DNA from: Cavenderia fasciculata
Lineage: Eukaryota; Evosea; Eumycetozoa; Acytosteliales; Cavenderiaceae
Assembly: GCF_000203815.1 (NCBI RefSeq)
Contig: NW_004457639.1
Location: 1,178,001-1,242,000 of the forward strand
Length of the DNA: 64,000 nt
Direction of reading: 5' to 3'
The translations under genes and the position numbers were made by a program. The notes under the pieces were generated by a model that ran no database searches, had not been told where the DNA came from, and worked only from the letters and a program-made list of their open reading frames with translations. Of the stretch, positions 39,588-44,541 are shown one piece after another; the first letter of the stretch is position 1; each line of letters begins with the position of its first letter.

Positions 39588-42500
39588 TTAATTTGTCTTT
39601 CCATATCTTGACGGACGGTGACCATTTTTCCAAACTTTAAAAATACCAAGTAGCAGCATATTACGTGCTGCATTAACATCCCGGTTGAAACTTTTTCCAC
39701 AACCAGTGCACAAAACACGTTTCCAGGACACAGCCATTCTGTGCTTGTTGTGTAGGGACTTACTTGCTTTTCTAATCTCTGGACCATATTTATTCTGTCC
39801 GTGTCGATAGTCGAACTTTTTTGTTGATGACGAAGACGATTGGGTCGAGGCAACTTTTTGAGAGTCCTGACGCGATTCAGTCTCCGAACCGGCAACATCT
39901 GACGGTGTCACCTTCCTTGTTCGACATTGACCTGCCACATTCAAAAGATTGTGTGATTGGAGTTTCTTGTCCAAATCATCGATGGATTTGAGGAACCCCA
40001 ACGACTCTTTGTATTCTTTTGAATGGGTGTCTTGCTTGACGAGTGCTAAACGATGCCGGTGGTCACTGCATCGAAGGAAACTATTACCTTTAGCAGCGGA
40101 TTGACATGCTTCGCTGATAGGTGAGCACTGTTGGACATTGGTCGGTTGGCCTCCATCCTTTTCTTTACCAAGCTTGAGATGGCATTTCTCCAGATGAAAA
40201 CCATCCTTTGGATCCTCATGAGGTTCGTTGAGGTCATGATGGATCAAGTTTTCCTCCTCTTGGTGGAAAAAACAATCAAAATGTTGCTAAAAAGTTTAAA
40301 GAGAATTAATAAATTTAATTAAATGTTTAAATAAAATGATAATTTTAATTAAGAAACTTACTCTTGACGTGTTGTATTCATTAATATAGACAACGGAATA
40401 TTGTTTGGACTTTAACTTGTTGGCAACAGTCTTGGCTGCAAATGTTGTTACCTTGCCACGAGTGTTGTGTCCAAATTTGGCATTTCCAAAAACTATTTTA
40501 AAAAAAAAAGGAAAAGGAAAAAAGGAAAAAAAAAATACATATTAATATATATACACTTTTTAATACATTAATATTCTTTTTGAAAATGATTTATAAATAC
40601 ATACATATGATTGTATTGTCTTGAATGTACTGATTCCTTTCAGAATCGTTCATACTTGAATACTTGGTTGGGAAATGATCTTTAAAGAGATCAAGAATGT
40701 AGTTGTCAAATTGTTGGTAAAACTCTTTGTTCAACTTTTGCTTTTTGAAAGCAAAGTTCCTCTTCCAAGATAGTACGATTGGATCATTGATGGCTTCGAA
40801 ATAGATATCGAAATAATCACAATACTTTTCATAATAGTCCAGCCTAGATTGGAATGTTTGAGGGTTAAGGACATTGACTATATATAAATATATAAATAAA
40901 AAAATAATGAATTAATAATTATTTAATAATTAAAATAAAACAAACAAATATTATAAAATGTATACATACACTTGAGAGATGGTAAACAGGATTCAAAACT
41001 TTTGATGGCCTTTCCCATATGACAAGAGATTTTCTCTAAAAGAAACTTGGTGTTTCTTTTAACCATAAGAGTATCCATTCTCATGTCCAGAACCTTGTCA
41101 TCGTGATTGTTAACGACAGTAATTGAGCACGTGTTGGGATCGATACCAATGGCAATGACATCCTTCAAAGACTTTCCAGCAAATTCTTTCTCCATTGCAA
41201 CTTGCTTGTTGTACAGCTTGTTGGGTTTGTTCCCAGGCTTGTACTTGATTGTTCTAAAAGTCACGGTGGCTGATGCACCATTGGTGGTGACAGACACCTT
41301 CTTGTCGAATGTTACTGTGACATATGGTAAAGATGATGAAGATGAAGAAGTAGATGGTGTAGTGGTAGTTGAGGTATTTTCATACTTTACTCCTTTGTTT
41401 ACTATCTCTTGAAACATTTCTTCTTTCGAAAAAGTTATTGTGCCTTTTGCAAGAAGTGCTCGATTTTTATCATGAGATCCTTTTTTAAAACCATGCAATT
41501 TGTTGTGTTGTTCAATTGCATTCTTTGCCTTTTCTCCAGTTTGCAAAGTAGCAGCTACCCTTGCCACATCTTCATTACCTTTATATTTCTTTAATGCCTA
41601 AAGAAAGAAAATTAGTAATTGAAATAATAATTTGTGAATGTAATAAATATTGAAATACTTACGCTTGCAAATCTATTGTCATTGTTTGTTTTCCTCCTTT
41701 CCTCATCCTTTTGTTTTTCAACATCAGTGGGAGGGGTGGCCGGAAGATACACCCTCTTGGTGTTTGTGAAAAGCCTTGGATCGTATTTGTACAAGCCTGG
41801 GAAGAGAGTGGCGATGGCATAGCTTGGGTTACCCTCGTGATCTTTTTCGACATTGGCCTTTTTTAAACCCAAACATTTCAAAAGGTTTTTAGCATGTTCT
41901 CTTGTAAACATGAATTGGATATCAAATCTATTAAAATGAATAAATAATAGGAATAATAATAAAAGTTAATACATTGATTTATAATTAATAGATACATAAA
42001 TATATAAATATATTTAACCTACCCAAGAGATGGTATAATGGATGAAATATTGATGAGCCCGGGAATAAACACGGTTGGTGTTCGGGTATCGCTAATCTGT
42101 TGGAGATCAGCATTTCTTTTTTCTGCCTCTATTGTGATCTTCTTCAGTTCATCCAACTCGCGGATTCGAATGCTGTCATGTTTCATTCTTTGATTGAATT
42201 TACCTTTTGGGTTGCGTGGTGAAGATGTGTTGGGTGATGAAGATGGTGAGTTTGTCAAATCATCAACTGTCAAAGATGTATTTGGGGACTTTTGCAACTT
42301 GATAGAAGCTTCTCTTCTTTCCTTTATGATAGCTTCCCTTCTTTTGTGAGCATCTTCCTTTTTCTTTTTGATAATATTTTTTCTTCTGCTCACCCGATTG
42401 TCATATTTTGCTTCCTTTTTCTTCTTCTTGTCATCTGATAAGTTGTTATACTCATCAATAACTTGTTGGTTATAACCTATAAATAAATAAATAAATAAAA

Positions 42501-44541
42501 AAGATTGAAAATAAATTAATATATGAATATTATATTAAATAGGTTTGTTTTTTTTTTTGCTTACCACCAAGGATTTCTATGGTTTTGTAGACACCATCTG
42601 ATAGATCATATGTGACAACACGGTCTGCTTTCTTTTCTTCATCTTCTTCTTCTTCACCTTCTTCATCTTCTTCACCTTCTTCATCTTCTTCACCTTCTTC
42701 TTGAACTGGTTGTTGGTCTTTCTCAGCTCTTTTTAATCTCGTATTAGAAAAATTATAAATAGTATCACGAACCAACTTTTTAACCTTTTTAATTTCTTCT
42801 TGGTTCTTTCCAAGATCCTTTATCTTCCTATCCTTGTAGGTGTTTAACAACTGTTTTAAATGGTTATCTAGAATAAGAAGAAAAAGAAAAAGAAAAAAGA
42901 ATTAATAATAGGGAAAATATAAATGATCATAAAACTATATTTATATATTTATATGACATACAAGTTGAAACCATGATATTATTTTTAATGTTGATCACGA
43001 TCACATTAACCCAGTTTTTTGAGTTGTTACAACGGAACTGTCTCAACTTTTGAAGCATTTGAAGCATTTTGGGTCTCTTTTGCATCTCTTTTTCCAAAAA
43101 TGGAGCAACATGTTTCATGAAAAAGCATCTACAAAGAAATAAATTAAAATAAATTAAATTAAATTAAATTAGTCACCAATTTAGACACTACTAACCACCT
43201 CTACTATGGTAATTAAAATAAATTAAAATCTTACAATGAGTAAATTGAATCATTGGATAGATCCTCCACGGTGTCAATACGAGGTACCGGATGTTTACCC
43301 ATTGCTGAAAAAATAGCGTCTCCTCCAAGAGCAAAGTATCTTATCATCCATTCAATCGACGTTCTGTCAAATCTAAAAGTGGTGAGATTTTCTTTTAGTT
43401 GATCTAAAGAAAAAAAAAAGAGTTAGTTTTTGATTGATTCATTATCTTTTTTTTTCTTTTTCTTTTTCTTGACTTACTTTCAGTAAGCTTGCATTGAGTT
43501 TGAAAAAACTTAACAACAAATGGAACAGGTGTTCCATTTGACTCAAAGCACTTGTTGTTGGTGGCTATTAGATTGAGAAAAGTTGTGGTTTGATTTCCAA
43601 TAAAATTGGCCAACTTTCTAATGCTCTGAATTAGTTCGTCGTTTGTTGGTACTGGTGATATTGTTGTTGTTGTTGTTGTTGTTGTTGTTGATTGGTCATC
43701 TGTAGTGTCCATATTGTTGGACGTTGTTGACGATGACGATGACGATGATGATGATGATGATGATGATGATGATTGGTCATCTGTAATGTCCATAGATTTG
43801 AACGTCCAATATGATGATGATGAAGAGTTTGATTTCTTTTTCTTCTTCTTTTTCTTTTGAGTTTCGTTACTCACAATTGTTGAATACTTCATTACGTATG
43901 AAGTGTATGATAATTGAGAGTCTGGTAACGATTCACCCTCTTTGAAGATGATTGATGGTCGATTGGCGTTTGAAGCCTTGTTCTTTCCAGCAGGCTTCCC
44001 AGCCTTTGACGTTGGAGCCTTGTTCTTTCCAGCAGGCTTTGACTTTGGTTTGGAAACCGGTGGGTCAACTGAGGAGGAGGAGGAGGAGGAGGAGGAGGAG
44101 GAGGAGGAGGAGGAGGTTGTAGTTGTAGAGATGGTTTGATCATCATCATCAGGATCCATTGGAGTGGTAGATGTAAAAGTGGTCGAGTCGTCCTTTTTGA
44201 CTCTTTTTACTGGTTTCTTCTTCTCCTTTGGTTTTGGTGGTGGTGGTGGTTGATCGAATTCTATTTTTTTCCTCTTGGGAGGCTTCTTTTTGTTGGATGG
44301 TGTTTTTTCAGGTTGATCGGGTTGTGTTATCTTCGGGGTCGTAAAGACCCTCGAAGATGTTATTCTTATTACTATTATTATTATTATTATTATTATTATT
44401 ATTATTATTATTATTATTATTATTATTATTATTATTATTATTATTATTATTATTATTATTATTATTATTATTATTATTATTATTGTTGGTAGTTGTTGAA
44501 GATTCAATCTGCATTGAATCTTGATTATTATTACTACTCAT
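39588..44541 (-). CDS. Fanzor nuclease (eukaryotic TnpB/OrfB homolog), ten exons
   Basis: Exons (minus): A 44541-43478, B 43403-43235, C 43128-42962, D 42867-42565, E 42476-42023, F 41927-41663, G 41597-40970, H 40877-40605, I 40492-40362, J 40286-39588. Every junction from A to J has GT...AG and keeps frame, about 1,370 codons. The split RuvC core is visible: RuvC-I IAIGIDPNT (Asp codon 41139-41141), a VVYINEYNTSR segment whose Glu (40377-40379) matches the rearranged Glu before 'TS' seen in Fanzors, and RuvC-III CTGCGKSFNRDVNAARN (Asp codon 39678-39680). The zinc ribbon is atypical, CFFH plus CTGC. The N-terminus is Asn/Ser/Lys-rich with NLS-like KKKPPKRKK. The ATG at 44541 opens an Asn-coding register of the AAT repeat that is one base off the downstream frame. 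Fanzors are RNA-guided DNA nucleases carried by eukaryotic transposons and viruses. Confidence 0.9.
44370..44484 (-). repeat. Long AAT repeat in Fanzor exon A (poly-Asn tract)
   Basis: About 38 consecutive trinucleotides. In the ATG frame it codes poly-Asn; in the frame that continues into the conserved protein it codes poly-Ile. The register conflict suggests a non-triplet length error in the repeat or a start codon further in. Confidence 0.95.

Follow-up and report, generated by a model that had tools for sequence, protein, structure and literature searches.

The DNA described here is a stretch of 64,000 nucleotides from Cavenderia fasciculata (C18:1178001-1242000; "the window" below always means this whole stretch), which was compared with the genome of 31.0 Mb in 21 contigs. 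An earlier note, made from the letters of this DNA, had proposed that it carries a Fanzor RNA-guided nuclease gene with nine introns. Such a gene, of the Fanzor1 type, is present on the minus strand, and it very likely belongs to a 5′-truncated copy of a DNA transposon whose other copies lie elsewhere in the genome.

A Fanzor1 gene with nine introns

The gene was assembled from the following parts:

39588..44537, minus strand: Fanzor1 open frame of the spliced model, stop codon included
44537-43478, 43403-43235, 43128-42962, 42867-42565, 42476-42023, minus strand: exons 1-5 of the spliced model
41927-41663, 41597-40970, 40877-40605, 40492-40362, 40286-39588, minus strand: exons 6-10 of the spliced model

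Removal of nine GT-AG introns (65-112 nt) from the minus strand yields a single open frame of 1382 codons, running from 44537 to 39588. Splice sites were chosen among candidate sites; for introns 7 and 8 alternative donors were tried, and one of six combinations was open. In four of the six gene-bearing copies (window, C14b, C3 and C2), exons 2-10 are equal in length and free of premature stops, while intron lengths vary among copies (73, 74, 134 or 135 nt for intron 1, 97 or 106 nt for intron 2, 94 or 130 nt for intron 3). C14a is decayed, with exons 4 and 5 altered in length and many stops, and the C21 copy starts within exon 7. Three of the nine window splice positions (after SLK, after NTII/NSII and after NTSR) recur in a paralogue, L072 (C14:3230201-3234800), whose RuvC part is 37% identical to that of the window gene; four splice combinations were open in L072, and the one matching the window positions was taken. 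In addition, the Pfam TNB model scored 35.7 bits on the spliced RuvC part (cut-off 26.3), compared with 24.1 bits on the last exon alone. Because exon lengths are kept while introns vary, because splice positions are shared with the paralogue and because of the TNB score after splicing, we conclude that the splice model is real. The nine in-frame introns of the earlier note are borne out, their junctions being backed by the other copies and the paralogue.

Catalytic residues and a variant zinc site

The residues expected of a Fanzor nuclease were located as follows:

41139..41141, minus strand: RuvC-I Asp (IGIDPN), in six of six copies, aligned with SpuFz1
40377..40379, minus strand: RuvC-II Glu (INEYNTS), in six of six copies, on the Glu of SpuFz1 DEYKTS
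39678..39680, minus strand: RuvC-III Asp (SFNRD), in six of six copies, aligned with SpuFz1
40272..40283, minus strand: first half of the zinc site, H-x-x-C (TSRQHFDC) replacing C-x-x-C, from sequence comparison with copies, families and SpuFz1
39699..39710, minus strand: second half of the zinc site, C-x-x-C, from a residue check across copies

A profile built from three families (the window family, L072 and L073) was searched against PDB sequences. Its top match was SpuFz1 (8gkh; whole-sequence E 0.0038), with three stretches that are colinear through the RuvC motifs. The RuvC-I Asp, the alternative Glu and the RuvC-III Asp recognized in the earlier note are present in every gene-bearing copy and fall on the SpuFz1 motifs in this colinear, weak alignment. 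By our own count of the fusion-tag offset, they would correspond to D383, E541 and D606, the catalytic residues of SpuFz1 according to the accessible part of its report (PMC10432273). In the window frame, 188 residues lie between Asp 959 and Thr 1148 and NRD is present at the end. Both features agree with the Fanzor motif as given in excerpts of Bao and Jurka 2013 (PMC3627910), which comprises an Asp-to-[TS][TS] spacing of 125-275, a terminal RD and a C4 zinc finger directly after [TS][TS]xx. A Gly (FFGNAKF) and the Glu of INEYNTS occur in all six copies; by our own reading, these may correspond to G500 and E536, which Bao and Jurka give as residues conserved in the Fanzor1 clade.

The first zinc ligand is a His in the window family and L072 (TSRQHFDC) as well as in L073 (TSKIHNAC, a reading valid for one of two possible splices), in contrast to the Cys of SpuFz1 (TSSVCPRC). 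In the window gene the two halves of the zinc site are 188 positions apart, and 208 positions separate the RuvC Glu from the last Asp, compared with 65 in SpuFz1. As the H-C-C-C arrangement is common to three diverged families, it is not the decay of one copy, and judging from the residues themselves we file the window gene as a variant Fanzor1.

Two TranC proteins (E 0.1 and 0.12) also matched the profile, at its last motif; two xylanases (E 0.083 and 0.086) among the five PDB matches up to E 10 were taken as chance. A phmmer search with the single spliced part returned no match among PDB sequences up to E 1. The guided_TnpB model reached 20.7 bits on the last exon, under its cut-off of 100, and weak Pfam, PHROG and NCBIfam matches besides TnpB/TNB, which were under cut-off or had none, were disregarded. 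Among 92 pattern matches of the three-family profile in viral contigs, no relative was confirmed.

A multicopy element with inverted repeats and AAAT duplications

The gene lies in an element of which the window holds these parts:

39427..46120, minus strand: truncated element, 5′ terminal repeat not found
39431..39443, plus strand: 3′ terminal inverted repeat, GAGCCTTTATTTC read inward, from comparison of family ends
39427..39430, no strand: AAAT at the 3′ junction, a target-site duplication in complete copies and present at nine of nine family loci read
45734..46120, plus strand: remnant of the start of a divergent transposase-like gene; homology with other copies stops at 46120

At least 1.9 kb of the Fanzor gene is present at six loci, and additional element fragments occur elsewhere in the genome. 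BLAST matches of the family terminate at or near window position 39427, after GGCTCAAAT, and this 3′ end recurs at nine loci with nine different flanks, each time with AAAT. A count of 3′ ends with a pattern lacking AAAT found 25 places in the fetched loci: 23 carried AAAT and one ATTT, and the 25th (in L034 and L036), which we read as the C7 element's left end in the opposite orientation, was excluded. In complete copies the left end, AAAT followed by GAATATTTATTTTC, lies at a distance of about 10.9 kb (C3) or 9.5 kb (C2); at the right end GAGCCTTTATTTC points inward and AAAT outward, and the repeats GAATATTTATTTTC and GAGCCTTTATTTC are imperfect. A search for the left repeat as a near copy of the right one found none, and the imperfect left end was recognized via a second, 12-copy family (see below). 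Among five family loci for which both ends were read, AAAT flanks both sides in four, namely C3, C2 and two mini-elements (C2:1744 kb and C2:812 kb); the flanks of C14b are ATTT and AAAT. C14b (L075, C14:2934230-2934300) has a left end of a different type, ATTT followed by GAGCATTTATTTTC; this disagrees with the AAAT on the right, much as a fusion of two elements would. In the window, no left end was matched with up to three mismatches allowed. The ends and duplications fit the published 12-13-bp terminal inverted repeats (TIRs) and 4-bp AWWT duplications, the window copy itself being without a 5′ end.

A large gene is transcribed divergently from the Fanzor gene in C2, C14a (the left part of which is rearranged) and C14b, and the window retains positions 45734-46120 of it. 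In C2 it can be spliced to about 870-880 amino acids (aa), compared with 888 aa for the published Sola2 transposase; going by the published naming, it is a probable transposase. The Fanzor N terminus reads MSSNNN... in the window, C14b and C3 and MSNKFSPL... in C2 and C14a, and the intergenic DNA is unrelated (window 43990-45700 compared with L011/L012). What the two N-terminal subfamilies have in common is the C-terminal part of Fanzor and the beginning of the divergent gene, a pattern that suggests recombination between elements.

A second Fanzor1 family (L073, C3:608601-612400, and 11 further loci) comprises 12 near-complete 3′ parts that are 98-100% identical. Its ends are GAATATTTATTTTC and AAAAGTTC, and of the 10 out of 12 loci read at both ends, nine are flanked by AAAT/AAAT and one by AATT/AAAT. 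L097 (C3:23510-23965) is a mini-element of this family with both ends present and a middle that reads N. L034 (C7:149925-153096, minus strand) holds a decayed Fanzor element of about 1.1 kb, seemingly with AAAT at both ends.

The N-terminal frame of the window copy

Two features concern the start of the window gene:

44308..44541, minus strand: ATG-initiated frame of 77 codons (Asn tract), out of frame with the rest here and in frame in C14b and C3
44157..44159, minus strand: first in-frame Met codon; a start there gives 1256 aa

The frame opened by the ATG at 44541 stops after 77 codons, out of frame with the remaining window gene, and upstream of 44159 the main frame contains no further Met. 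The homologous ATG opens the full frame in C14b (1436 aa) and C3 (1435 aa); C2 is open from a different N terminus (1351 aa), and C14a is not open. Near 44.33 kb, the window differs from C14b and C3 by 5 bp. With a start at 44159, the window copy would lose two basic stretches, PKRKK and KKKPVKRVKK, that resemble nuclear localization signals. Jiang et al. 2023 are said to have found that Fanzor genes acquired introns and nuclear localization signals. Because the frame change adjoins long triplet repeats, the break is possibly an assembly error in this repeat-rich stretch. The description of this copy as intact and without decay does not hold, given the early end of the 44541 frame, the stop of homology at 46120 and the 5′ terminal repeat not found in the window. 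The poly-Asn/Ser inserts, previously taken to look host-adapted, are encoded by triplet repeats and differ in length between copies, and therefore say little about function.

A structured 3′ tail and a predicted guide

Downstream of the stop codon, two features were predicted:

39427..39590, minus strand: predicted omega-RNA scaffold, with a 7-bp stem-loop after the stop codon and a closing helix AUUUGGGCU/GGCUCAAAU at the element end
39406..39426, minus strand: predicted guide, the flank just beyond the element, placed by the SpuFz1 layout (PMC10432273)

The 164-nt tail between the stop codon and the element end folds more stably than its shuffled versions (z −3.21; none of 200 shuffles equally stable). 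Its stem-loop of 7 bp is formed by UGCC/GGCA plus GGU/ACC, and the closing helix pairs AUUUGGGCU with the last nine bases, GGCUCAAAU. For three Fanzor1 omega-RNAs, the available part of PMC11423790 gives the length of the first stem-loop as seven base pairs, and, as far as the excerpted Spizellomyces punctatus report goes, the RNA there lies between the stop codon and the 3′ repeat, with 14-15 nt of flank as the guide (PMC10432273). Rfam gave no match for window 39200-39900 up to E 1. The earlier guess of an omega-RNA at 39.2-39.7 kb was about right; the element ends at 39427-39430, so that flank or guide lies below.

The closing helix was tested in nine tails with 300 shuffles each, counting shuffles at least as good. 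The counts were 14 for the window, 3 for C2:106k and 7 for C2:1744k, which belong to one family and are not independent; among other loci, they were 1 for C18:1308k and 8 for C5:2122k, where the helix is at a different place. Pairing was within chance for C7:151k (254/300), the 12-copy family (276/300), C4:224k (184/300) and C3:23k (103/300).

Mini-elements without the protein keep parts of this tail. A 401-bp mini-element at C2:1744 kb, with AAAT on both sides and without a Fanzor gene, retains the closing helix as well as the stem-loop, about 150 nt from its end; it resembles the protein-less "ghost" loci known for SpuFz1 in S. punctatus. A 1341-bp mini-element at C2:812 kb has kept the helix strands and not the stem-loop. 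When AAAT plus the first 16 nt of the predicted guide (20 nt) was compared with the genome, the one perfect match was its own site; no second target was found in the genome, where one place matched with 2 mismatches and 13 with 3.

A more specific proposal is that the AAAT duplication pairs with AUUU of the tail, so that the omega-RNA scaffold would be completed only at AAAT insertions, the same AAAT serving as the target-adjacent motif (TAM) of the empty site. It would account for AAAT at nine of nine family 3′ ends and for the closing helix in the window family, and it agrees with C18:1308k, a member of another family that ends in ATTT and has its upstream strand changed to match (1/300 shuffles as good). 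The four cases with pairing at chance level count against it, and AAAT may merely be the preferred target of the transposase. We offer this proposal tentatively and regard it as rather unlikely.

Age of the copies and selection

Over 3089 exon bases, the window copy differs from C3 at 0 positions, from C14b at 2 and from C2 at 19. Its differences from C2 are 12 synonymous and 7 non-synonymous (ratio of non-synonymous to synonymous changes per site, pN/pS, 0.15), those between C14b and C2 are 12 and 9 (0.19), and both changes between the window and C14b are non-synonymous; pN/pS is 0.19 for the window and C14a and 0.62 for the window and C21. Since 12 of the 19 window-C2 changes are synonymous, with pN/pS of 0.15, purifying selection acted on both the lineage to C2 and that to the window group. 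Such a pattern fits an active transposon lineage with a useful protein and is silent on retention of the window copy. Of the two explanations offered earlier, recent activity holds for the family, given the window-C3 identity, and not for the window copy, where the 5′ end and the transposase-like gene are missing and the frame is not open from the first ATG. Host retention does not follow: the element around the gene is multicopy and has inverted repeats as well as target-site duplications, and selection of this kind can also be seen in a mobile lineage.

A probable damaged copy of a Fanzor1-carrying transposon, and the alternatives

Based on these results, we consider it highly probable that the window holds a 5′-truncated, not self-sufficient copy of a Fanzor1-carrying Sola2-type DNA transposon, whose family nuclease is likely omega-RNA-guided and directed at empty sites. 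In such a system, the transposase, transcribed away from the Fanzor gene, would move the complete element between its inverted repeats and duplicate AAAT at the target. If it acts like SpuFz1, the Fanzor protein (1351-1436 aa in copies open from their own ATG) would bind an omega-RNA made of the 3′ tail from 39590 to 39427 plus the flank as guide, and the complex would cut the matching empty site beside an AAAT-like TAM. With the element-bearing copy as the repair template, the element would then stay in the genome, to the benefit of the transposon, and tail-bearing elements without the protein might be served in trans.

Several observations weigh against this interpretation. The divergent gene is split between two frames in C14b and has no Pfam or NCBIfam model above cut-off, and the label Sola2 derives from the publication together with size, ends and duplications. 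Of the three stretches matched to SpuFz1, the first reaches an i-Evalue of 0.062; the others, at 1.1 and −1.7 bits, count only for their order and motifs. A C4 zinc finger as in the published Fanzor/TnpB motif was not found, the first position being His in three families. Finally, the closing helix exceeds chance at its expected position in two of the tested families, that of the window and that of C18:1308k, and is not general.

The likeliest competing explanation, which concerns the tail, is that its conservation reflects a transposase-binding end alone and not an omega-RNA. Movement requires terminal repeats anyway, and the chance-level pairing in the 12-copy family, C4:224k, C7:151k and the C3:23k mini-element would be expected on this account, as would the negative Rfam search. 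It leaves aside, however, a fold far better than that of shuffled tails, a stem-loop retained by the 401-bp protein-less element and the corresponding place of the SpuFz1 omega-RNA in the part of PMC10432273 at hand, and we find it unlikely. A different objection is that the gene is a dead passenger, with no working nuclease in the window copy or in the family. The truncation and broken frame of the window copy, the decay of C14a, the truncation of C21, the changed first zinc ligand and the two non-synonymous window-C14b changes would all be explained in this way. In three copies besides the window, exons 2-10 are nonetheless open, as is the frame from the copy's own start codon, and the synonymous excess between window and C2 and the sharing of H-C-C-C by three diverged families also speak against a dead nuclease, making it improbable. 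Even less credible, and very unlikely, is domestication, in which the host would have kept the Fanzor gene for its own use after loss of the transposon. The window copy does lack the 5′ end and the transposase-like gene and yet keeps exons 2-10 open; these exons are, however, identical to those of C3, which makes the copy too young for any retention to show. In addition, the N-terminal frame of this copy is broken, and its 3′ end and AAAT junction are the same as in mobile copies.

Relation to known elements

The accessible part of Bao and Jurka 2013 describes four Fanzor1 families of Dictyostelium (Cavenderia) fasciculatum, three of them Sola2-type (DFa-1, DFa-2 and DFa-3) with 12-13-bp TIRs, AWWT duplications and a common 5′ part; an 888-aa transposase is present in DFa-2 and mostly deleted in DFa-1 and DFa-3 (PMC3627910). 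As far as those excerpts describe them, these elements resemble ours in the Fanzor1 gene, the short TIRs, the 4-bp AT-rich duplication, the large transposase-like gene in some copies only and the 5′ part common to families, which was observed here too. Likened by description, the window element is very probably one of the published DFa elements.

SpuFz1, carried by the Spu-1 elements of S. punctatus, is alike, so far as its partly available account goes, in the Asp/Glu/Asp residues, the multicopy element and a tail RNA between stop and 3′ repeat. It differs in being a single open reading frame (ORF), compared with nine introns and about twice the gene length here, in its zinc site (C-x-x-C, not H-x-x-C with halves 188 positions apart) and in having CATA in place of AAAT beside the predicted guide. 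PpFz1 of Parasitella parasitica is likewise a Fanzor1 with a large extra insertion; according to the available text (PMC11423790), its insertion of about 100 aa lies within RuvC, whereas that of the window gene lies between the zinc-site halves (TNB domain). Mentions of dictyostelids and of introns were not found in the text of PMC10711439.

Other features of the window

The 3′ end of the element lies about 200 bp upstream of a same-strand ORF (38471-39232, minus strand) starting MSNGGWFASLTDQL, on which read-through or promoter effects are possible. On the plus strand, window 5654-14552 contains three large ORFs with closely similar stretches (ITTxIDYHNDxVLEYLLxRI), apparently a cluster of related genes, and ARAGORN places a tRNA-Asp(gtc) gene at 60664-60737.

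Implications

The kind of element described here is already in print, and the window contains a damaged member of it. A limited search of published accounts, some available in part, did not bring up the insertion-bearing H-C-C-C zinc site, the omega-RNA tail of such elements, the mini-elements or the exchange of N termini between subfamilies. In three families, the altered zinc site and the large TNB insertion mark a Fanzor1 branch outside the fungal and algal structures published, to the extent that these reports were accessible. Within the genome of one social amoeba, truncated copies occur next to complete elements whose large gene is a probable transposase, together with several diverged Fanzor1 families and with mini-elements that lack the protein but keep the guide-RNA-like tail. 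Why eukaryotic DNA transposons carry RNA-guided nucleases is a question that these elements could help test.

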